Shown: one piece after another, positions 16,596-38,056 of the stretch | How positions within the stretch are numbered: position 1 is the first letter of the stretch | Layout of the letters: the number at the start of each line of letters is the position of its first letter | NCBI GenBank assembly: GCA_958295735.1 | Contig: OY282369.1 | Span: 1,596,161 to 1,660,160 of the forward strand | DNA length: 64,000 bases | Direction: 5' to 3' | Source: an uncultured Candidatus Cenarchaeum sp. | GTDB taxonomy: Archaea > Thermoproteota > Nitrososphaeria > Nitrososphaerales > Nitrosopumilaceae | Notes under the pieces: generated by a model | Database searches by the model: none | Seen by the model: the letters and a program-made list of their open reading frames with translations, nothing else | Told to the model about the DNA's origin: nothing | Made by a program: the position numbers and the translations under genes

Positions 16596-16636
16596 CGCCG
16601 CTCCACCTTATTACGTAGCACTGCGGCTTTTCCCGC

Positions 16637-19600
16637 ATGCCCGCGCGTGATCCGGCCGGATCGCCGCCGCGCCGCCCCGCGCTCCGGCTGCCCGTCGCCG
16701 TCGCCGCTTCCGCCGTCGCCGTCGCCGTCGCGGCGGCCGTCCTGGCCGCGCCGCTGCCCCAGCATGCCGCGGCCTGGCCGGAGGCCGCCGCCGCGTGCGG
16801 CGCGGGGCAGGCGCCGCCGGATCCGGCATGCGCCGCGGGCCCGCCCGCCGCGGCCCCCGGGGAAGGGCGGCCGGACGGCGCCGCCGCCGGCCGGCAGGAG
16901 CGGCGGCCGCCGGAGGCCGCGCCCTACGCCTCGTCCGGGTACGCGGAACTTCCCAACCCGTCCAACACGACGATCTCCGTGCATTCCCGGCCGTACGCGG
17001 GCGAGCCTCTCGGCGTGGTTCTCACGACCACGCTTCCCCCGGCCGTGGCCATGATGCACGGGAACGGCAGCATGGGCGTGTTCGAGTTCCCGGACGGGCA
17101 CGAGGACGCGGGGGACACCTCGGTGCACGTGCTGTTCGGCGGGGACGTCGCGGTGCTCTCCTCGGATCCGGCCCTCGGCGCGCCGTCGCGCGGGGAGGCA
17201 GGCGGGAGCGCGTACACGGAGATCGGGGGGACGCTGGCGGCGACGCCCGGCCGGGAGTACCGGTTCGAGTTCACGGTGCTTCCCGCCGAGGAGGGCGTCA
17301 CCGTGATCGACGCGGCGGGGTTCCTGCGCGGGGCCGCCCGGCTTGTGCTGGACGTGGCGCCGGCCGCCGGCCGGGGCGCCGCGGGGCACCCGCAGTCGGC
17401 CGCCGCGCCGGATCCGCCGGGACGGGCGGGCCCGCCGGCCGGGGAGCCGCGGGGCGGCCGGAGCCTGGGGGACGAGATCAGGGCGGCCGCTGCGGCGCCC
17501 CTCGCCCCCGCGCCCGCCGGCGCCGGCTACGCGATCCCCGCGGGAGGCTGGGCGTGGAGCGATCCCGGCGCGGCGGATGCGGGAACGGGGGATCTCGTGC
17601 TGTTCGGGCAGATCCGGCTGGAGCTCCCGTACTCCGACTCGATGGGGCCCGCGCGCGGCCTGCTCGTGTGTGCCGTCGACGTGGGCGCGGGAAGCCGCCG
17701 CGGGGCGCCGATGAGCTACGCGGACGGGACGGACGCGTGCGCGCGGACCGACGAGCACGGCCTGTACGTGCTCGGGCCCCTCAACGCGACCGATCCCGAC
17801 GGGGACGGGACGGGGCCGGACCCGGGCATCCTCGCGTACTCGTACGGCGGCGGGGTGTCCGTCAGGAACAAGACGGGGTGGACGTACCACGAGGCAGCCG
17901 GGCACTACCTGCAGGATCGCGCGGCCGGGATCGCGCGCCTCGACATGGACTTGGGGACGCCCGAGATGAACGGGGCCGCCAGGATAGTGGATGCCGTGTC
18001 GGACGCGGAGGCCTTTTTCGAGGGGGAACTGGGGGCGGAGATCCCGCCGGTCACCGTATACTGGCAGTACGGCGAGCGCATCATGGACGCCTGGCCGGAT
18101 CGCGCCGGCGGCCGCGCCAGCCACGCGTTCTACGTGCCGTTCCACTCCGAGATTTTCCTCGACGGGCTGGACGCCGTCAGGGCGACGGGCGACGTGTCGG
18201 AGAGCAGGTATGTAATCCAGCACGAGTACGGCCACCACGCGCACAGCCACCTGGGGGGGACGCCCGAGGGCTGCGCGCACGCCTTCAGGACGAAGGTCTC
18301 CCCGGGCTGCGCGTTCGGCGAGGGCCTCGCCTACTTTGTCCCGCACGTGGTGGACGGCGCCCCGGAGCTGCGCGAGTACGAGAACACGTACGTCGACATG
18401 GAGCGCGAGCTGCGGCGCGCGGGGGAGGGCATCCAGTTCCTGTTCGACTACTCGGGCTCCCTCGACAGGCAGACGGAGATACAGGTGGCGGGGGCGCTCT
18501 GGGACGTCCACGACGAGCCGGCGGACGGGATCCACGACCGCAGGAGGACGCTGGCCGGCGGGACGGTGGTGGCGGAGGGGGGAATACTGGACGACCTGCA
18601 CGTGGGGGCCGGCGAGATCGTCCGCATCGTGCGGGACGGCCCGCAGAACGCCGAGCAGTTCTACGCGAGGTGGGAGAAGGAGGAGGGGCTCGGGAGCATG
18701 GAAAGCATAATGGACCTGCACCGGATGCGGTTCGGACCCCCGGATCTCCCGGTGTTCGCCGCGGTCCCGGCCGTGGAGGTGGACTACACGGGCGAGGCCT
18801 CGGTGCCCGTGGCCGCCGCCGCCCCGGGGGGCGCCGGCGTGTCGCTGGACGCGCGCCAGGGGTTCGAGAACGAGCGCGGGTACGAGTACGGCGGGGCGTT
18901 CGTGGACGACGGCGGGAACGGCGCGGGGACGCTGGTCCTGCGCCCCGCCCGGGCCGACGTGGGGGAAGGCTTCGTGGTGGTGCGCGCCTCCTCCCCGGGG
19001 GGGAGCGAGCTGGCCCGCGTCGGCGTCACGGTGGGGGAGCCCCCCAAGTGGGCGCCCGTCCAGCTGAACTCCACCTTCGACAGGGGATTCGCCGACTGGA
19101 CGCCGGACTGGGGCGACGTCGGCAGGTGGAGGCTCGCCCCGGACGGCGGCTCGCCCTCTCCCCCCGGCCTCGTGTTCAGGGCCGGGGCGGAGAGCAACGT
19201 GACCCTGGATCGCGGCATAGACGTGACCGCGTACGGCTCGGCCGTCTTGGGGCTGTCCCGCAGCTCGCCGCCCCTGGAGCCGGGCTCGTACCTGAGGGCC
19301 TACGCCTCGGACGGCGCGGGCCCGTGGGCGCTGCTGGAGGAGTGGGGCGCGGGAAACGCGACGGGCGGGTTCCGGCAGGAGGCGGTCCCGCTGCCGGCCG
19401 GCCTGATGGATGCGGAGAGCCTCGTAGTCAGGCTCGCGGCCAGGGGCCTGCCCGCCGACCCCTCGCGCGAGTTCAGCGTGCTCATAGACAACGTGACCGT
19501 CACCGGCGCGCGCGGCGGGGGCCCCGCGATCGAGGCGCCCGGCGACGCGGCGGTGGAGGCGGAGTCGCCGGCCGGCGCCGCCGCGGACATCGGCACGCCG

Positions 19601-22213
19601 AGGACGGATCCCGCGGCCCTGGCCGTGGCCCGCGAGCCGCCGGGGCCCCTCCCCCTGGGGACCACCGCGGTGACGTGGACCGCCACGGACGAGGCGACCG
19701 GCGAGTCGGACAGCGACACGCAGCTGGTGGACGTGGTGGACACGACGCCGCCCTCGGTGACGCCGCCGGCGGACTATGCCGTGCGCGCCGCCGGCGCCGC
19801 GGTCTCGCTGTCCGCCAACGACTACTGCGGCGCCTCCGCGGAGGACGCGGTATCGGGCACCATACTGCTGCACACGCCCACCGCGGCCCTGCCCGTGGGG
19901 GAGACCTCGGAGGTGACGTGGCTGGCCCTCGACCGCTCGGGCAACCACGGGACGGCCGTGCAGCGCGTGGCGGTGGAGCGGTCGGGCGTCCCGCGCGTCC
20001 CCGCGTCGGCGGTTGCGGTGTGGGCGGAACCCGGCGCGGAGCAGGGCCCCGCGGCCGTGCACGTGGGGTTCTCGCATCCCGTGGTCCTGACCGCCGCCAT
20101 GTCCGGGGAGGCGCCGGGCTCCCTCCTGCCGTCCCTTGAAATGGCCGGCGGCGGGAAGGCGGAGTACGAGTCGGGAAACGGGACGGCCCGCCTCACATTC
20201 TCGTACGCGGCCCGGCCCGGCGAGGGGGCGCCAGACTACGCCGGCCCGCACGCGCTGGGCGGCCCGTGCACGATACGGAGCGCGGCCGACAACCGCGGGG
20301 CCGATGCGGAGCTGCCCGACCCCGGCCCGCCCGGCCTTCCCGGCCCGCCGGACGCCCCGCGCGTGGCGGGGGTCTACTCCGACATGGCCGCGGGCGTGTA
20401 CGGCGAGGGCAGTGCCATAGCGGTGCGGGTGAACTTTTCGGATGCCGTCGCGGTGGGCGGCTCGCCCTCCTTGCTGCTGGAGGCAGGCCCGCCGGGGGCC
20501 GCCGCCGCGTACGCGAACGGCTCCGGCACGCGCTCGCTCGCGTTCGAGTATACGGTGCGGGCCGCCGACGCCGCCGCCGACCTGGACTATTCCGGGACGG
20601 GGGCGCTGGTGCTCAACGGCGGCTCCGTAGCCTCCCCGTGGGGGGCCGCCGCCGACCTCACACTGCCGGATCCGGCAGCCGAGCCGGGCCTCCTGGCCGG
20701 GCCGGGCGGAATCACACTGGGCACAAAGCCGCACGCGCGCGTGGGCGTGTTCGCGGGCGGCCCTGGCGACCCGGCGGCCGCGGCGGCGCGGCTGGGGGCC
20801 GCCGCCTTCAACGGCCGGTCGGCGGAGCGGGGATACGCGGCGTTCGTCGACGTCTCCGAGCACGCGCTGCCCGCGGGGGCGCCCGCGCGGGAGGCCGAGG
20901 CGGCCCTGCGGGAAGCGCACGACGGCGGGCGGGGGCCCGTGCTGTACGTGGGCCCGGCCTCGGATGCCGCGCTGCGCGGCATGGCCGGATACGCGGCGGA
21001 GAACGGGATCACCCTGGTGTCGCACTCGTCCGCGGCGCGCTCGCTGGCCGCCGGAGGGGACGGCATATTCCGGCTGGAGCCGGGAGCGGCGCACATGGCC
21101 ATGGCCCTCGCCCGCATGGTGGCGGACGGCGGGTTCGGCGCGGCAGTGCCCGTGGTGCAGGCGGACCTGTACGGACCGGGGTACGGCCTGCTGGAGCCGC
21201 TCGCGTCCGGCCTCGCGGGGGCCGGCATACCGGCAGGGCGGCCCGTCGAGTTCCTGGAAGGGGACTGGGCCGCCGCCGCGGAATCCATAAAGGCCGCCGT
21301 GCTGGCCGCCGGCGGGGAAGGAACGGCCAGGAACGTGGCCGTCATATACGCGGGCTCGGACTCGGCGCTCGCGGCCATCGCCGGGAACACGGGCGCGGGC
21401 AGCCCCGTGCGGGAGAGGTCGGCGTGGTTCGCGGCGGGCGGCGGGGTGGCCGCGTCCCCCCTCGTGCTGTCGGATGCGGCGGCGCTGGAGATGGCCAGGG
21501 ACGTGAGGCTGGCCGCGGTGCAGTTCGCCGTGGAGCGTAACGACATAACGGACGAGATAGACGGCGCCGCCGACGGCGCCTCCGCCGCATCGTCCACGCC
21601 GGCGTACGCCGCGTACGAGGCCGCGCGCATACTCGGCAGGGCCCTGGCGCTGGCCGGGGGCGATCCGTCGGGGGCGGGAGCGCGCGTGGCGAGGGCGGCC
21701 GACTTGGACGGCGGCCCGCTCGGCCGCATGAGCCTGGACAGTTCGGGAGACCTGCGGCTGCCCATAACGTACGGCGCGTGGTCGGTCTCGAGCGAGTCGG
21801 CAAAGTGGGAGCGGGCCCCCGACCTGCTCCGCGGCATGGACATGTGCGGCATCGCGATGGAAAAGTCGTCGCTCGCCCTGCCCAGCGTGTCCCCGGGGCG
21901 GGCAAGCGGGCCGGCGCGGCAGACCATCACCAACACGGGGACGGTCCCGCTGCCGGGCGTAACCATAAGCGCCACCGACTGGGATCTGCGCGGGAGCGGC
22001 GGCTCCGGGCCCGGGGCCACGCTGCCGTCCTCGCTCACGGAGATATCCGTGGAATCGGCGGGCTTCGCCCCGCTGGCGAACGGGACAGCCATACTGAACG
22101 GGACGCTGCCGGGCGACAGCGCGGGAATCGACTTCCGGATAAACCTCGCCGGGGTCCCCACGCTTGAGGCCGACTACATGGCGCAGACCGTCACGTACGG
22201 GGTGAACTGCTAG
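16637..22213 (+). CDS. Giant secreted fusion: gluzincin-like metallopeptidase, beta-sandwich repeats, HYR-like domain and PBP1 ligand-binding domain
   Basis: 1858 residues from ATG 16637 (TATA-like CTTATTACG about 27 nt upstream). It has an N-terminal signal peptide (VAVAASAVAVAVAAAVLAAP). A metallopeptidase-like module has HEYGHH at residues 529-534 and GEGLAYF with Glu at 562, the HExxH...E layout of gluzincins. A jelly-roll-like segment (about 810-960) follows, then an HYR-like domain (about 1030-1115, ending WLALDRSGNHGTAVQ). Two cadherin/SwmB-like beta domains come next (about 1120-1240 and 1250-1360, the second with VAGVYSDMAAGVYGEGSAI). A periplasmic-binding type I domain (about 1367-1725: GVFAGG, VLYVGPASD, GITLVSHSSAA, VAVIYAGSDSA) is followed by a short beta domain with no C-terminal anchor. 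The chain probably acts outside the cell as a combined protease and sensor or scavenger. Confidence 0.8.
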   Translation: MPARDPAGSPPRRPALRLPVAVAASAVAVAVAAAVLAAPLPQHAAAWPEAAAACGAGQAPPDPACAAGPPAAAPGEGRPDGAAAGRQERRPPEAAPYASSGYAELPNPSNTTISVHSRPYAGEPLGVVLTTTLPPAVAMMHGNGSMGVFEFPDGHEDAGDTSVHVLFGGDVAVLSSDPALGAPSRGEAGGSAYTEIGGTLAATPGREYRFEFTVLPAEEGVTVIDAAGFLRGAARLVLDVAPAAGRGAAGHPQSAAAPDPPGRAGPPAGEPRGGRSLGDEIRAAAAAPLAPAPAGAGYAIPAGGWAWSDPGAADAGTGDLVLFGQIRLELPYSDSMGPARGLLVCAVDVGAGSRRGAPMSYADGTDACARTDEHGLYVLGPLNATDPDGDGTGPDPGILAYSYGGGVSVRNKTGWTYHEAAGHYLQDRAAGIARLDMDLGTPEMNGAARIVDAVSDAEAFFEGELGAEIPPVTVYWQYGERIMDAWPDRAGGRASHAFYVPFHSEIFLDGLDAVRATGDVSESRYVIQHEYGHHAHSHLGGTPEGCAHAFRTKVSPGCAFGEGLAYFVPHVVDGAPELREYENTYVDMERELRRAGEGIQFLFDYSGSLDRQTEIQVAGALWDVHDEPADGIHDRRRTLAGGTVVAEGGILDDLHVGAGEIVRIVRDGPQNAEQFYARWEKEEGLGSMESIMDLHRMRFGPPDLPVFAAVPAVEVDYTGEASVPVAAAAPGGAGVSLDARQGFENERGYEYGGAFVDDGGNGAGTLVLRPARADVGEGFVVVRASSPGGSELARVGVTVGEPPKWAPVQLNSTFDRGFADWTPDWGDVGRWRLAPDGGSPSPPGLVFRAGAESNVTLDRGIDVTAYGSAVLGLSRSSPPLEPGSYLRAYASDGAGPWALLEEWGAGNATGGFRQEAVPLPAGLMDAESLVVRLAARGLPADPSREFSVLIDNVTVTGARGGGPAIEAPGDAAVEAESPAGAAADIGTPRTDPAALAVAREPPGPLPLGTTAVTWTATDEATGESDSDTQLVDVVDTTPPSVTPPADYAVRAAGAAVSLSANDYCGASAEDAVSGTILLHTPTAALPVGETSEVTWLALDRSGNHGTAVQRVAVERSGVPRVPASAVAVWAEPGAEQGPAAVHVGFSHPVVLTAAMSGEAPGSLLPSLEMAGGGKAEYESGNGTARLTFSYAARPGEGAPDYAGPHALGGPCTIRSAADNRGADAELPDPGPPGLPGPPDAPRVAGVYSDMAAGVYGEGSAIAVRVNFSDAVAVGGSPSLLLEAGPPGAAAAYANGSGTRSLAFEYTVRAADAAADLDYSGTGALVLNGGSVASPWGAAADLTLPDPAAEPGLLAGPGGITLGTKPHARVGVFAGGPGDPAAAAARLGAAAFNGRSAERGYAAFVDVSEHALPAGAPAREAEAALREAHDGGRGPVLYVGPASDAALRGMAGYAAENGITLVSHSSAARSLAAGGDGIFRLEPGAAHMAMALARMVADGGFGAAVPVVQADLYGPGYGLLEPLASGLAGAGIPAGRPVEFLEGDWAAAAESIKAAVLAAGGEGTARNVAVIYAGSDSALAAIAGNTGAGSPVRERSAWFAAGGGVAASPLVLSDAAALEMARDVRLAAVQFAVERNDITDEIDGAADGASAASSTPAYAAYEAARILGRALALAGGDPSGAGARVARAADLDGGPLGRMSLDSSGDLRLPITYGAWSVSSESAKWERAPDLLRGMDMCGIAMEKSSLALPSVSPGRASGPARQTITNTGTVPLPGVTISATDWDLRGSGGSGPGATLPSSLTEISVESAGFAPLANGTAILNGTLPGDSAGIDFRINLAGVPTLEADYMAQTVTYGVNC

Positions 22214-25273: not shown

Positions 25274-26356
25274 ATGGGTGGAACCACAAACCAAGGAGAG
25301 GTTCATGGATTTGATGCCATTCGCGGTATCCAGGGGAGGCGAGAGTACTTTGTAGTCACCTGCCCGCTAAAAACACTACCTGCGCTATTCAAGCTCGGAG
25401 AGTCATACTTGACGCCCAAGCAACGAGCTCAACGGAAAATGAGAGGGACCCGCATTCCGGCAATCAAATCATACATACTAGACAACCCTGCCGAATACCT
25501 GTTCTCGTCGGTAACGGCCTCGGTTGACGGCGAGATGAGATTTGAACCTGCACCGCACCTAGGCCCAGATGGTAAGATGGGACGCTTATACATAGACATG
25601 AATGCCAGGATGCTGTTGAACGACGGTCAACACAGATGCAAGGCGATAGATGAGGCGCTGTCTGAACGCCCGGATCTTGGCTCTGAATCGATCTCTATCG
25701 TGTTCTTTGAGGATAAAGGCTTACAAAAATGCCAGCAGATGTTTGCAGATCTTAACAAGAACGCTTCAAAGCCGTCAAAGTCGCTGAACATACTGTACGA
25801 CCGCAGGGATCCATACTCTAGTTTTATAGTAGAAATGACGGAAAATGTTGAGATTTTCAAGGACAGAGTAGACATGGAGAACACCACCATAGGCAAGAAC
25901 GCCACAGAGATGTTCACACTAGCAGGAATAGCAGATGCAACACGAAAGCTCTTGGGGAAAAACAAGATAAGGCGAATGCGCCAGGAACAAAAATCGCTCG
26001 CACTAGAATACTGGAAAACCGTAGCAGATAACATGCCAGACTGGCAACTCGTGATCGATGGGGATGCCACACCAAACGATCTACGGGCGAATTTCGTTCA
26101 CACCAATACTAACTGCCTCTACTCGCTAGGGATAGCCGGTAAGGTGATCGTTGAAACATATCCCGACACTTGGAAGAGAGTGTTGCGACGCTTTCGCACA
26201 ATAGATTGGACTAGGGACAACAAGGCGTGGCAGGGCACGCTTCTGCAAGGCAAACATATGGTGAGAACCACGACAGGCACAGTCTTGGGTGCCATCGCCA
26301 TACTCAACGCATGCAATGTTAGAATACCACGGGGGATGGAGGCGCTACGGAATTGA
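25274..26356 (+). CDS. dndB: DNA phosphorothioation regulator DndB (DGQHR domain)
   Basis: 360 residues with the diagnostic MLLNDGQHRCKAIDEAL motif (DGQHR) and an IVFFEDKGLQKCQQMFADLN segment typical of DndB. In bacteria DndB represses the dnd operon and limits modification level; the DGQHR family also appears in other DNA-modification loci. ATG 25274 lies 25 nt after a TATA-like ATTTATAC. The stop overlaps the dndC start (TTGA), so the four dnd genes form one coupled operon. Composition is much more AT-rich than flanking genes, consistent with recent transfer. Confidence 0.88.
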   Translation: MGGTTNQGEVHGFDAIRGIQGRREYFVVTCPLKTLPALFKLGESYLTPKQRAQRKMRGTRIPAIKSYILDNPAEYLFSSVTASVDGEMRFEPAPHLGPDGKMGRLYIDMNARMLLNDGQHRCKAIDEALSERPDLGSESISIVFFEDKGLQKCQQMFADLNKNASKPSKSLNILYDRRDPYSSFIVEMTENVEIFKDRVDMENTTIGKNATEMFTLAGIADATRKLLGKNKIRRMRQEQKSLALEYWKTVADNMPDWQLVIDGDATPNDLRANFVHTNTNCLYSLGIAGKVIVETYPDTWKRVLRRFRTIDWTRDNKAWQGTLLQGKHMVRTTTGTVLGAIAILNACNVRIPRGMEALRN

Positions 26357-27762
26357 CGGATTCGGTATTTGAGACAAAAAGCTTGAAGCAGATCTACGAG
26401 GAGATCAAAAAAGTATACTTGGGCGACGACCGTCCATGGATATTGGGGTTTAGTGGGGGAAAAGACTCCACCTGCATGGTTCAGCTGGTCTGGAAGGCGC
26501 TTGAAACACTCCCGCCAGAAAAGATGGGCAAGAGAATATACGTCATATCTTCAGATACCCTTGTTGAGTCGCCTCAAATTGTAGAACGCATAACTGGCTC
26601 CCTTAGTATGATGGAGAAGCACGCCTCTATGTCGGGTTTGCCTGTGTCCACCAACCTTCTCAAGCCCCCAGTCACCAACACATTCTGGGTAAGAGTGCTG
26701 GGCATGGGATATCCCGCACCAACTCCCATGTTTCGGTGGTGCACTGAAATGCTGAAGATTGACAATGCAGATAGGTTCATCAAGGAACGCGTCTCCGAAT
26801 ACGGTGAGGTAGTAGTTCTTTTGGGTACACGAAAGAGTGAGAGTTCCACACGGCAACAGACAATGAACCTGCTTGAGATAAGCAACAGCGTGCTGTCTCA
26901 CCATAAAAAATTTGCGCAGACATACGTGTATACCCCACTGGTAGACTTTGAGGCCGACGATGTCTGGAACTACTTGCTCCAGAACAAAAACCCCTGGGGC
27001 GAAAACAACCGCAATCTCTTGTCTTTGTACCAAGAAGCCAATGCAAGCGAGTGTCCGTTGGTGGTAGACACCAGCACTCCGTCCTGTGGTAGCGGACGGT
27101 TCGGTTGCTGGACATGTACTGTGGTAGATCGACAAAAATCCCTTGAGAATATGATAGAAAATGGACATGACTGGATGGAACCTCTTGCAGAACTGCGCCA
27201 AGTTCTCAAAGATACACAGAACCCAGAAGTGTGGCCCAAAATACGTCAAGTGACTAGACGCAACGGCAGGGCAGACCTACGCAATGACGGGTCAGACTAC
27301 ACGCCGGGGCCGTACAAGCTGGAATTCCGGAAGCAGTATCTCGCAAAGCTGTTAGAAGGACAGAATGCGGTGCGCAGGCACGATCCTTCCATGATCTTAA
27401 TCTCAGAAGACGAAATATGTGAGATACAGCGAATCTGGAGGATGGAAGAGGGCGACTGGCGGGACAGCGCATATGCAATATACGAAGAAGCGACAGGGAT
27501 CCGCCTTGAGACAGAACCTGACGATTCTGGAGGATTCGATGCGGCAGATCAAGACCTGCTGAATCAGGCATGCCAGCGCCACGGAGTGCCCTACAAGCTA
27601 GTGAGCAGCCTCCTCAACGCCGAGTTGGAAGCATCCTCGGGGAACCACGCCAAGGTGTTTCCAAAGATCAAAGCAGAGTTGTCCAAAGAATGGAGAGACA
27701 ATGTGGAAGATATACGAAAGTCACTGTTCCGGCAGAGAGATATGGAGAGGGCGGCCAAATAA
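26353..27762 (+). CDS. dndC: DNA phosphorothioation sulfurtransferase DndC
   Basis: 469 residues of the PAPS-reductase-like PP-loop family. The nucleotide loop is FSGGKDST (residues 33-40). Cys130 (FRWCTEMLK), Cys234, Cys245, Cys252 and Cys255 (ECPLVVDTSTPSCGSGRFGC, then WTC) supply the ligands for the [4Fe-4S] cluster described for DndC. The protein adenylates or activates the DNA phosphate and passes sulfur into the backbone, replacing a non-bridging oxygen. The start is TTG 26353 overlapping the dndB stop; no better start exists. The C-terminal third is helical and less conserved. Confidence 0.92.
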   Translation: MTDSVFETKSLKQIYEEIKKVYLGDDRPWILGFSGGKDSTCMVQLVWKALETLPPEKMGKRIYVISSDTLVESPQIVERITGSLSMMEKHASMSGLPVSTNLLKPPVTNTFWVRVLGMGYPAPTPMFRWCTEMLKIDNADRFIKERVSEYGEVVVLLGTRKSESSTRQQTMNLLEISNSVLSHHKKFAQTYVYTPLVDFEADDVWNYLLQNKNPWGENNRNLLSLYQEANASECPLVVDTSTPSCGSGRFGCWTCTVVDRQKSLENMIENGHDWMEPLAELRQVLKDTQNPEVWPKIRQVTRRNGRADLRNDGSDYTPGPYKLEFRKQYLAKLLEGQNAVRRHDPSMILISEDEICEIQRIWRMEEGDWRDSAYAIYEEATGIRLETEPDDSGGFDAADQDLLNQACQRHGVPYKLVSSLLNAELEASSGNHAKVFPKIKAELSKEWRDNVEDIRKSLFRQRDMERAAK

Positions 27763-29771
27763 TGCTTCTGCGGCGGATGTCCCTGTCCAACATAGGGATA
27801 TACGGAAAGGCCGATGCGGAAGCTGACGTATTTAATCTTGAACCGCGACCCGGTAAGCCGGTAGTCCTGTACGGCGGTATGAACGGGGCAGGCAAGACAA
27901 CGCTGTTTGACGCAGTTTCACTGTGCATGTACGGTCGGGATTCGATTGAACCGCGCCCATCAAAAAAAGAATACGAACACAAGATCTGGTGCCTCATGCA
28001 CAGAGATAAGACCGGAAAGCGATCTCACACAGCATCGGCGACTCTAGACTTCAGCTACTCCCACGGGGGCAGGGTAGCAGATTATCGAATTCGGAGAGAG
28101 TGGTTCGGAGATCAAGGCCGGCTTGAAGAAGAGCTTATCATGTCCAAAAAATCTTCAGGAAGATACCGCACCATCATGCTGGAAGGCAACCCGCAACACA
28201 TGATTAACAGTCTGTTACCTCGTAGCATAACACGACTGTTTTTCTTTGACGGAGAAAAGATACAAGACATAGCTGACACCGGGAACGAAGACGAATATAT
28301 CGCATCGTCGTTTAACTCACTCTTAGGAATGGATCTAGTCGATCGACTCCATCAAGACATGGGCTTGCACATACTTCGCACTGCAGATCATGGTGCTGGT
28401 GCACTCATGAAGGAAATCAACTGCATGATGGTAGAAAAGCGCAACATTGAGAAAAAGATTGAAGATCTGCGCACCAAAGCTACATTCTTAGAAGGCGACG
28501 TATCTAGGGCAAGCCGGGCCTTGGCCGCCAGAAAAGATGAATTTTTCAAGCTTGGGGGGGGAATGGCGCAGAAAAGCCAAAACCTTGTAGCCCAAAAAGC
28601 CCACACAGAACAAAAGATCAAGATGGTCAGGAAGGGCATCCAAGATCTTTGCGTCGGCACCATGCCGTTGCTTTTAGTTCCAGAACTGCTATCACAAGTC
28701 AAGATCGGCCTTAAATCTGAGATGTCCAGCATGCGTAGCAGCATCTCAAGAAGCATTCTGGACTTAGAATTCGAGGCGGTGGCCACCGCTCTTGATGTAG
28801 ATCTTTCACAACGGCTAATGGAACCAGAGGCTCGCCTTGTGGTGGTGAGGGCGGCTAGAGATATCATGACCAAGAGACTAGCGTTGCTGCCAAAACATAA
28901 GCGGCAGACGTTTGGGTTTTCACTGGAAGATGCCGATTCGCTGATCCGGATCATGAACTCCCTCCAGCGCGAACGAAACTTTGATGACTTGGCGAGAGAT
29001 TACGATTCACTAACAGAGTCACTTGGAGAGATTCAAACAATGCTTGATGCATCTCCTCAACATGACGATATAGGACCGGTTCTGTCTGCCATGAACGAGG
29101 CGCAAAGCGAGATGGCAGAGATTGAACGTGATCTCGAGAGTGTTAGAGCCTTGGAGTTGAGGGAAAGTTCCCGACTGCTTCTATTGAATGCAAAGATCAG
29201 AAAAATCCTGGCTGAGAAAAAGACTGCTGACCGAGACGCTGGTGGGTTACACATGGCGCGCAAAGTTCAGAAAGTGCTTGATGATTACGGCAGAAATCTT
29301 CGTGCTAAAAAGATAGGCACTCTGGAGTCCAACATATTGAATGGAATACAAAGGCTTTTCCACAAAAAAGATCTCGTTAACAGCATATCCATTGATCCGA
29401 ATACCTTTAAAGTCACCCTGCACGGATCTGGAGGCAGGATAGCACGCGAAATGCTTTCAAAGGGAGAGTTGCAAATGTACGCAATCGCAATAATTTGGGG
29501 ACTTGCACGCACATCTGGCCGCCCCCTCCCTTTCATCATAGACACCCCACTAGCAAGGCTGGATACATCGCACAGGGATAGCATGGTGGAGAATTTCTAC
29601 ACATCTGCATCACATCAGATCATAATACTATCTACAAACACTGAGATTGCGGGATCTTACTATGAGCGGCTTACTCCGCATGTCGCACGCTCGGGGGTTA
29701 TAGAATATGATCTGCAAGCTGGCACCACACACATCCGTAGTGGATACTTTGGGACAGAAAAGTCGAATTGA
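27762..29771 (+). CDS. dndD: DNA phosphorothioation ATPase DndD (SMC/SbcC-like)
   Basis: 669 residues. Walker A is YGGMNGAGKTTLFDAV (about residues 37-52). A long coiled coil spans roughly 220-520. The ABC-type signature is LSKGELQMYAIAIIWGL and Walker B is FIIDTPLARLD. No CxxC zinc hook is visible in the coil. DndD is the structural ATPase of the Dnd complex, thought to nick or open DNA for sulfur insertion. ATG 27762 overlaps the dndC stop (TAATG), confirming the start; upstream in-frame codons belong to the dndC gene region. Confidence 0.92.
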   Translation: MLLRRMSLSNIGIYGKADAEADVFNLEPRPGKPVVLYGGMNGAGKTTLFDAVSLCMYGRDSIEPRPSKKEYEHKIWCLMHRDKTGKRSHTASATLDFSYSHGGRVADYRIRREWFGDQGRLEEELIMSKKSSGRYRTIMLEGNPQHMINSLLPRSITRLFFFDGEKIQDIADTGNEDEYIASSFNSLLGMDLVDRLHQDMGLHILRTADHGAGALMKEINCMMVEKRNIEKKIEDLRTKATFLEGDVSRASRALAARKDEFFKLGGGMAQKSQNLVAQKAHTEQKIKMVRKGIQDLCVGTMPLLLVPELLSQVKIGLKSEMSSMRSSISRSILDLEFEAVATALDVDLSQRLMEPEARLVVVRAARDIMTKRLALLPKHKRQTFGFSLEDADSLIRIMNSLQRERNFDDLARDYDSLTESLGEIQTMLDASPQHDDIGPVLSAMNEAQSEMAEIERDLESVRALELRESSRLLLLNAKIRKILAEKKTADRDAGGLHMARKVQKVLDDYGRNLRAKKIGTLESNILNGIQRLFHKKDLVNSISIDPNTFKVTLHGSGGRIAREMLSKGELQMYAIAIIWGLARTSGRPLPFIIDTPLARLDTSHRDSMVENFYTSASHQIIILSTNTEIAGSYYERLTPHVARSGVIEYDLQAGTTHIRSGYFGTEKSN

Positions 29772-35861: not shown

Positions 35862-36039
35862 GTTCAATGCGAGGCACAATATGTCTGCTTATAAATTTTC
35901 CCTGCGTCGTAGTGTACACACTTACCTCCCCCCCCCCTCCCGCCGCGACTTGGCCGCCCGGGCGGGCCCGCGCGCCGCGCAAGCTTAGGCTGGCCTAAGG
36001 GTCGATTTGTATAATTGTGGCGAGTTTGGGCCTGCCGGC

Positions 36040-37770
36040 ATGGCGGAATCCGGGGTGGCGCTGCTGCGCAAGGAACTGGCGGCCGCGTTGGAAAAGATCG
36101 CCGGGCTGGAAGCCGAGGCCGCGGAGCGGGCGGCCGAGATCGCGATGCTGAAGGCCAAGTCCACGGAGCAGGCGCTGCTGCGCAAGGAACTTGCGGCCTC
36201 GCTCGAAAAGATCGCCGGGCTGGAAGCCGAGGCCGCGGAGCGGGCGGCCGAGATCGCGATGCTGAAGGCCAAGTCCACGGAGCAGGCGCTGCTGCGCAAG
36301 GAACTGGCGGCCGCGTTGGAAAAGATCGCCGGGCTGGAAGCCGAGAACTCCGGGCTGAAGGCCAAGGCCGCCGAGCAGGCGGTCAGGCTTGCCGTGTGCG
36401 ACGGCCCGAACGCGCCCTCGTCGTCCCTCACCACGTACGGCCCCCGGCGGAACGCCTGGCGCAAGGAGCGGGGCTACAAGGGGAGCGACGGGGCCGGATC
36501 CGACGGCAAGCCCGCTCCGGACGGCGGCGCCCCGCGCAAGATGGGCCCGCCCCAAGGGCACAAGGGCGTCTCGCACTGCAACAAGCCCGAGTTCACCATG
36601 AAGTGCGGGATCCTGACGTGCCCCGTGTGCTGCGGCCCCCTGGAGAAGTTCGACAGGTGGCGAAAGCTGGTCAACGACTTCGATCAGTTCTGGCGCGTGG
36701 TCACCGCGATGATCGAGGTGGAGACGGGCTGGTGCGGCAAGTGCGAGAAGTACTACGAGGCCCAGGCGCCGTTTCCGAAGGGCACCTCGTGCGGCCCGAG
36801 GGCGCTCGGCCTCATAATGGCGCTGTTCGAGATGGGCTGCACGGACGCGAGGATCGCCGGCTTTATCGAGTCCACGTTCTACTTCCGCATCTCGGAGGCG
36901 GCCGTGGCGAAGGCCAGGAGGGCCATGGCGGGCGCGTCAAAGAAGCAGCTGGAGGACATCAAGTGGGCGTTCCGCGAGAGCATGTTCGTGCACATGGACG
37001 AGACCGGGTTCAAGATCGGCGTGCTGGGCAAGACCGGCTACGTCTGGGTGGCCGTCGTGGGCAACGCCGTGTGGGTGCACTTCGCGCCCACCCGGGGGGC
37101 GGCGGTCCTGAGGGAGCACTTCGGCTGGCTGTCCCGCAGGGCGGTGGTGGCCGACGGGCTGCCGGCGTACCGCGCGTGGTTCCAGCATCTGCAGAGATGC
37201 TGCAGGCACCTGCTCGCCAAGGGCGAGGCCGTCGCCGTGGACGGCGACCCGGGGGACGAGGCGAGGCACGACTGGATGCAGGGGTACTACCACAAGATAC
37301 GCGGCATCAAGACGCTGGCGCCGTTCACCGTGACGTACCTGGCCAAGGAGTTCCACGACGCCGTGTCGGCGTACCCCGACGGCAAGCTGAAGACGCACCT
37401 CGCCAACGCCGAGCCGCACGTGCTCACGTTCATGGGATTCCGCGGCATGCCGCCCCACAACAACCCCGCCGAGCTCGCCATACGCGACCTCATAGTGACG
37501 CAGCGCAACGCGCACCACAAGATCTCCACGCCGGAGGGGCGCAAGACGTTCTCCGAGCTGGTCACGATCGGGGGCACCGCCCGCATGAACGGCATGTTCC
37601 CGGGCAGGGCCTTCACCGAGATCGCCCGCAACTCCGACTGGAAAATGTTCGACCCCGGCCCGTGGGCCGGGCCCGACTGGTGCGTCTTCGATGACCCCGC
37701 ATCCGGGCTGGTGCGCCCGCCCGGCTCCGCGGCGGGGCGGGCGCCGGCTCCGGCAGCGGCGTCCGCCTGA
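36040..37770 (+). CDS. IS66-family transposase
   Basis: 576 residues from ATG 36040 (TATA-like TATAATTG about 28 nt upstream). The N-terminus is a coiled coil built of nearly three 38-residue repeats starting LLRKELAAALEKIAGLEAEA. Next come the IS66 zinc-binding region (CGILTCPVCCGPLEKF, WCGKCEKYYEAQ) and the catalytic core with Asp in HMDETGFKIG, Asp in VVADGLPAYR and Glu in HNNPAELAIRD. No separate IS66 accessory genes (tnpA/tnpB) are present, so it is the single-gene archaeal or ISBst12-like arrangement. The ending carries an Ala/Pro tail. Confidence 0.92.
   Translation: MAESGVALLRKELAAALEKIAGLEAEAAERAAEIAMLKAKSTEQALLRKELAASLEKIAGLEAEAAERAAEIAMLKAKSTEQALLRKELAAALEKIAGLEAENSGLKAKAAEQAVRLAVCDGPNAPSSSLTTYGPRRNAWRKERGYKGSDGAGSDGKPAPDGGAPRKMGPPQGHKGVSHCNKPEFTMKCGILTCPVCCGPLEKFDRWRKLVNDFDQFWRVVTAMIEVETGWCGKCEKYYEAQAPFPKGTSCGPRALGLIMALFEMGCTDARIAGFIESTFYFRISEAAVAKARRAMAGASKKQLEDIKWAFRESMFVHMDETGFKIGVLGKTGYVWVAVVGNAVWVHFAPTRGAAVLREHFGWLSRRAVVADGLPAYRAWFQHLQRCCRHLLAKGEAVAVDGDPGDEARHDWMQGYYHKIRGIKTLAPFTVTYLAKEFHDAVSAYPDGKLKTHLANAEPHVLTFMGFRGMPPHNNPAELAIRDLIVTQRNAHHKISTPEGRKTFSELVTIGGTARMNGMFPGRAFTEIARNSDWKMFDPGPWAGPDWCVFDDPASGLVRPPGSAAGRAPAPAAASA
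36060..36360 (+). repeat. 114-bp coding repeat in the IS66 transposase
   Basis: Two full copies and most of a third of a 114-bp unit encoding a 38-residue heptad-like segment. Differences between copies are few (for example AAALEK against AASLEK). Confidence 0.85.
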
Positions 37771-38056
37771 CCGGCCCCAGCGGATCTGCCGGGCGCGCGC
37801 GGGCGGCGTCAGCCCGCGTCAGGCATCGGGACGGAGCGCCGTACCGGGGCGGCCGCGCGCCGAAAATGCCCCGAACCCTGCCGCGATCGCGCGGCGCGCG
37901 CCGATCGGGGCAGCCCGGGCGCGCGGGGGGCGGCGCCCGCCCGCCGAAGGATCCCCGCTCCGGCCGCGATCGCGCGGCGCGCGCCGATCGGGGCAGCCCG
38001 GGCGCGCGGGGGGCGCCGGGAGGGGGGGGGGGGGAGGTAAGTGTGTACGTCGTAGT

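Follow-up and report, generated by a model that had tools for sequence, protein, structure and literature searches.

The closest described peptidases to the 1858-residue protein encoded in the window (the whole 64-kb stretch of DNA analyzed here) are M36 fungalysin and M4 thermolysin of clan MA(E). They share with it the predicted fold, the HExxH motif with a distal glutamate, and a motif of the E-G-[WL]-[SA]-x-F type, and sub-threshold Pfam matches to M36 occur in its subfamily. In contrast to M36 and M4, the subfamily stays below the M36 cut-off and has no FTP propeptide match (Pfam, for the window protein and its paralogues A, B, D, and E), and the window peptidase has 28 residues from the second histidine to the glutamate and a TTR-like domain in front. 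A further AOA protease that is large, exported, and equipped with HYR-type repeats is described from Ca. Nitrosospongia ianthellae: an M72 metalloprotease of 2027 aa with hyaline repeats, reported alongside a triple-livK protein (PMC6790972). This triple-livK protein and the LivK of Ca. Cenporiarchaeum stylissum, which is present in high copy number (PMC6697440), are the named examples of LivK/LivJ-type proteins in AOA. The C-terminal part of the window protein resembles them in PBP1 homology and in having expanded in copy number within the same archaeal family, but here the PBP1 domain belongs to a C-terminal cassette (PBP1-CT) of giant multidomain proteins, has an altered pocket, and occurs in about 30 copies. 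HYR and NHL domains in AOA have also been reported (PMC7848895), and no description of the PBP1-CT cassette was found in the accessible portions of this literature on AOA LivK and HYR/NHL proteins (PMC6697440, PMC6790972, PMC7848895). The C-terminal domain of the T9SS, a bacterial case of strictly C-terminal display, offers an analogy in that one conserved end module is carried by many unrelated payloads. No homology is claimed, and PBP1-CT differs in having no known partner machinery.

Gene, start site, and export

The gene and the features at its 5' end are as follows.

16637-22213, + strand: whole gene, 1858 aa (open frame and codon-position GC)
16608-16613, + strand: TATA-like promoter element TTATTA, 29 nt upstream of the start codon
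16637-16774, + strand: signal-peptide segment, residues 1-46 (hydropathy scan)
16898-17371, + strand: conserved N-terminal beta domain, residues 88-245 (79-85% identity in paralogues A-E, 59% in F)

The GC content around the gene is 74-76%, so the length of the frame alone is weak proof of a gene; GC at codon positions 1/2/3 of the 1858-aa frame is 75/59/93%. This pattern, the recurrence of the domain order in paralogues, and the promoter element at fixed spacing show that the frame is a real coding gene. An antisense frame of 1803 aa over the gene shows an inverted pattern of codon-position GC and was rejected as spurious. Five subfamily genes, the window gene and paralogues B, C, D, and E, have the TTATTA element at the identical 29-nt spacing, which supports the ATG at 16637 as the start, and the sequence suggests that the transcript of the window gene is leaderless. 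The hydropathy scan showed neither a lipobox nor a C-terminal membrane span in the window protein. The single secreted chain proposed in the first-pass annotation is supported.

Paralogues in the same genome

The N-terminal half of the protein is present in six other genes of the genome. Five of these (A-E, 2149-3159 aa) lie in tandem at 538-576 kb and repeat, with variations, the order of domains seen in the window gene at about 60-70% identity, and this level of identity together with the separate locus indicates that they are not copies of the window gene. They also bear on the possibility, raised in the first-pass annotation, that the chain is a misassembled fusion. The high GC content of the genome and sister genes B and E, which are out of frame at poly-G, could point to an artefact of misassembly or frameshift joining, but five paralogues with the same order elsewhere rule out misassembly, and the window gene contains no poly-G tract; we regard such an artefact as extremely improbable.

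The sixth paralogue, F (789 aa, near 2.65 Mb, 2654337-2656706), is the seventh peptidase copy of the genome. It carries HAYAHH and so has no catalytic glutamate, its PBP1-CT half sits in another frame (2647060-2654340), and judged from these features it is a decaying copy. Taken by itself, F would fit a view of these proteins as plain adhesins in which peptidase activity has been lost in most copies. Against this, HExxH and the distal glutamate are kept in every peptidase copy except F, and the peptidase domain (PEP) is among the more constrained parts of the chain, and we consider such a loss very unlikely.

Metallopeptidase domain

17945-18781, + strand: thermolysin-like metallopeptidase domain, residues 437-715 (AlphaFold2 and Foldseek)
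18221-18238, + strand: HEYGHH, residues 529-534 (H529, E530, and H533 invariant in 39 sequences)
18320-18322, + strand: E562 in GEGLAYF, presumed third zinc ligand, invariant in 39 sequences

The AlphaFold2 model of the peptidase domain has a pTM of 0.82, and Foldseek placed aureolysin, Gentlyase, thermolysin, and protealysin at the top ranks with a probability of 1.00 and TM values of 0.45-0.50 to 1bqb, 4ger, and 4tln. Alignment of the domain with 38 relatives from archaea and bacteria showed that H529, E530, H533, H548, E562, E589, D623, and D626 are invariant in all 39 sequences. By analogy with thermolysin, H529 and H533 would be zinc ligands and E530 the catalytic residue. The metallopeptidase first proposed from HEYGHH and a downstream glutamate in GEGLAYF is borne out by the predicted thermolysin/aureolysin fold and by the invariance of these residues, which are confirmed at positions 529-534 and 562.

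Family models gave matches below their cut-offs. For the window protein, the Pfam Zn_peptidase model gave E=0.28 and the NCBIfam YpfJ-type model E=0.024, both sub-threshold, and Pfam returned no M36 match. In the paralogues M36 matches reach 8.5e-5, still under the cut-off, the best score being 22.4 bits (paralogue B) versus a gathering score of 23.3. None of the eight peptidase relatives scanned matched a Pfam or NCBIfam family above cut-off, and a direct PDB sequence search with the peptidase domain gave nothing useful. M72 peptidases are metzincins, and this identity was rejected for the window protein, in which HExxHxxGxxH is absent and the sequence is HEYGHHAHSHLGG; the gluzincin-like window protein is set apart from the M72 protease of Ca. 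N. ianthellae by its lack of HxxGxxH, a distinction of motif and not of aligned sequences. Sequence and model together agree with clan MA(E) in both the thermolysin-like fold and the HExxH motif with a third-ligand glutamate. On these grounds we assign the domain to the gluzincins, with a predicted fold like that of thermolysin and M36 as its nearest family; no family model was found for it. The exported protein is very probably a protein-cutting zinc enzyme.

A scan of genome contigs with the full-length protein as query gave no relative. A profile scan of the contigs gave 107 peptidase loci in archaea and bacteria, including Thaumarchaeota S13 (contig G044:C93), Cenarchaeum sp. PNGst, and Nitrosopumilus LS_AOA and PfA, as well as Micromonospora, Chloroflexi, ANME-2, and Bacilli. 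The paralogue profile placed peptidase relatives in five further genomes of the family, and with a wider profile their distribution was patchy across the phylum. The domain would represent an uncharacterised gluzincin family spread across many bacteria and archaea. In other AOA the peptidase is preceded by a TTR-like domain and in some followed by a MAM-like domain, and peptidase and PBP1 were never together in one of the other-AOA frames examined. The domain order, for which the first-pass annotation knew no characterized counterpart, occurred in no other genome searched. We take LS_AOA and PfA to be sponge-derived. Thaumarchaeota S13 (RHFA) corresponds to the sponge symbiont Ca. Cenporiarchaeum stylissum (PMC6697440). 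These occurrences suggest a host association of the window's archaeon.

Other domains along the chain

17582-17944, + strand: TTR/carboxypeptidase-regulatory-like beta domain, residues 316-436 (kept ahead of the peptidase in paralogues and several other AOA)
18782-19081, + strand: Ig-like beta domain, residues 716-815 (paralogue profile)
19082-19531, + strand: MAM-like/jelly-roll-type domain, residues 816-965 (paralogue profile)
19532-19996, + strand: two HYR-type repeats (Pfam HYR at residues 1034-1113)
20018-20734, + strand: two Ig-like repeats of the SLAFxYxVxxGDxAADLDY kind (sequence)

We infer the fold names TTR-like, Ig-like (residues 716-815), and MAM-like/jelly-roll from sequence. Three other AOA genomes also have a MAM-like domain after the peptidase, in four proteins altogether. 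The adhesion-type modules of the first-pass annotation fared unequally. Pfam HYR passes its cut-off at residues 1034-1113 (24.5 bits versus a gathering score of 21.7, E=3e-5), so the HYR-like modules stand, whereas the cadherin-like modules are without a Pfam match in the window protein (E up to 1) or the paralogues (E up to 0.05), and the stretches concerned read as unnamed Ig-like beta domains and the putative MAM-like, jelly-roll-type domain.

The PBP1-CT cassette

20735-21820, + strand: PBP1 (LivK-related) domain of the C-terminal cassette (profile homology)
21821-22210, + strand: C-terminal cassette domain (CT), with a cysteine near its start and a cysteine as the last residue

Pfam ANF_receptor matched the window protein alone with E=0.0017, below the Pfam threshold, and a direct PDB sequence search with the PBP1 domain gave nothing useful. 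A PBP1 profile has matches in 24 other genomes of the family, to LivK-like AOA proteins at up to 2e-24. Such proteins match ANF_receptor at 7e-34 and Peripla_BP_6 at 6e-26, and a LIV-binding-protein structure at 3e-9. The type I periplasmic-binding domain named in the first-pass annotation is recovered through these intermediates.

The genome itself contains 59 matches to the PBP1 profile and 48 to CT. The 30 strong cassettes are found in frames of 1147-7648 aa, which add up to at most about 346 kb (about 11% of the genome), and about 23 cassette proteins have no peptidase. CT is about 125 residues long, follows PBP1, and ends 0-2 residues before the stop codon in 35 of 35 frames. Exactly two cysteines, at the CT start and the chain end, are present in 28 of the 30 strong cassettes; one of the other two has an extra cysteine and one lacks CT because of a frame break. 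Two cassette giants scanned with Pfam contain NHL propellers and Ig-like Big_12 repeats. The AlphaFold2 model of PBP1-CT, made from one sequence, has a pLDDT of 38, too low for interpretation.

The genus has one other genome, which gave no CT match, and matches of CT elsewhere are weak. With domain names assigned by eye, these are NHL-type propellers of 518-523 aa in genome G118, a 173-aa exported protein in G073 in which the CT-like domain stands alone, and an FG-GAP-like protein in G149. Given the occurrence of CT-like domains on exported AOA proteins elsewhere, CT appears to be an older C-terminal domain of such proteins, coupled to PBP1 in the present genome. Another AOA genus (G013, contigs C104 and C77, loci L095 and L096) has FG-GAP-like/binding-protein/PBP1 and propeller/PBP1 fusions without CT, which indicates that fusion of PBP1 to exported proteins also occurred in that genus. 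In the genome of the window (G000:C1 1681579-1693746, L073), a 4055-aa frame has, as read by eye, SBP_bac_3-like (type II binding) domains in its front part and a diverged PBP1-CT at the end.

Cassette exchange and the ligand pocket

The peptidase carriers do not group together in a tree of 29 cassettes; they require 6 changes, and 229 of 500 label shuffles gave a number as low. The cassettes of peptidase genes D and E (pepD and pepE) are nested in a clade of NHL giants with 100/100 support, and both share with these giants the domain ahead of PBP1. The cassette thus moves between payload proteins. Pairwise dN/dS, used as a ranking only because GC3 is 93%, is lower for PEP and PBP1 than for TTR, MAM-like, and CT.

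The loops SHSSAARSL and GPASD are almost invariant in 30 PBP1 copies. We take S79, T102, Y150, and E226 to be the leucine-pocket positions of LivJ. Transferred by alignment, S79 becomes Asp, T102 becomes Ala, E226 is lost, the Y150 position is Tyr, His, or Arg among the cassettes, and the first cleft loop falls short of that in LivJ by six residues; E226 is missing in the standalone AOA LivK-like proteins as well. These alterations make a branched-chain amino acid an unlikely ligand of the cassette, and the PBP1 domain may have another ligand or a protein partner. The genome has one adjacent pair of LivH/LivM-type permease genes (PF02653), at 676-678 kb, distant from every strong cassette.

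These results bear on two readings of the PBP1 domain as a binding protein. It was proposed in the first-pass annotation that the protease also senses or traps a ligand; in this reading the PBP1 cleft would bind a soluble ligand and modulate, localize, or report for the peptidase on the same chain. The PBP1 homology and constraint and the near-invariant loops are consistent with this, but the cassette is also found on the peptidase-free proteins, no C-terminal membrane span was seen, and the leucine-pocket residues are lost, and the swapping of the cassette between payloads is the strongest argument against a protease-specific sensor. This part of the annotation is not supported, and we consider a sensor or trap rather unlikely. 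In the second reading the peptidase digests protein and the LivK-type domain passes amino acids to a LIV ABC permease. The permease pair would provide the transporter, and the many LivK copies of Ca. Cenporiarchaeum stylissum were interpreted as branched-chain amino-acid import (PMC6697440). A single pair stands against about 30 cassettes, however, the pocket and cleft loop are altered, and the PBP1 domain is not free but forms the tethered end of chains that are 1100-7600 residues long; scavenging of this kind appears distinctly improbable.

Proposed function

We consider it reasonably probable that the window gene encodes an exported thermolysin-like zinc metallopeptidase that a reusable PBP1-CT display cassette at its C-terminus holds at the cell surface. 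The cassette would keep the exported chain at or near the S-layer, with PBP1 retained as a docking or binding body and CT, closed by a disulphide, capping the end. A stalk built from the HYR, MAM-like, and Ig-like repeats could present the peptidase to proteins outside the cell, for example those of a host matrix or of other microbes, and import of the released peptides would fall to separate transporters. The payload would differ among sibling genes, which would carry NHL propellers, a peptidase, or a doubled peptidase. The constraint on PBP1 and the near-invariant SHSS motif would also fit a retained ligand site. The display reading would recast the "LivK expansion" of sponge-type AOA, earlier understood as amino-acid import (PMC6697440): in this genome it would for the most part be a cassette of surface proteins, and a candidate means for an archaeon to display giant proteins that have no membrane anchor.

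Poly-G tracts

G/C runs of at least 11 nt number 37 in 698 kb of sequence, and a single first-order Markov simulation of these regions produced 2. In 12 giants a sense-strand G11-G15 tract lies 69-113 nt upstream of the signal core; the zone tested makes up 1.7% of the sequence (a 12-of-24 count for the tracts, P about 9e-13 assuming independence, a value that is overstated because related genes were counted as independent). Most tract-bearing giants have a usable start directly after the tract, so any effect would be on transcription or the leader and not on the reading frame. In pepB (G12, G000:C1 555300-555311) and pepE (G13, 575436-575448) the tract lies between the signal segment and the mature protein, and as assembled the frames end after 83 and 80 aa. 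These two tracts are candidates for the anatomy of translational phase variation, to which a homopolymer assembly error is an equal rival.

Poly-G tracts may perhaps set which payloads are on. Our more tentative suggestion is that the genome holds a dedicated display cassette of PBP1 and a disulphide-capped CT, with a shuffled, poly-G phase-variable repertoire of giants (propellers, adhesive repeats, and metallopeptidases) like bacterial contingency systems; this is possible but doubtful. If the G tracts do vary, this would be an archaeal case of surface proteins under poly-G phase variation, of which no report was found for this group in the literature searched.

Surroundings of the gene

The genome is a single contig of 3.17 Mb, and GC content across the 64-kb window ranges from 41% to 78% in 2-kb steps. 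A GC-poorer stretch at 25274-29771 of the window holds DndB, PAPS-reductase/DndC-like, and AAA/SMC-like genes and, by its gene content, is a putative cluster of the DNA phosphorothioation type. At 35928-38034 of the window and elsewhere, repeated ends aggtaagtgtgtac stand beside G10-G13 and form inverted pairs with a spacing of about 2.1 kb. These pairs are probably an insertion sequence, and one such end sits within a giant frame at 2511490.
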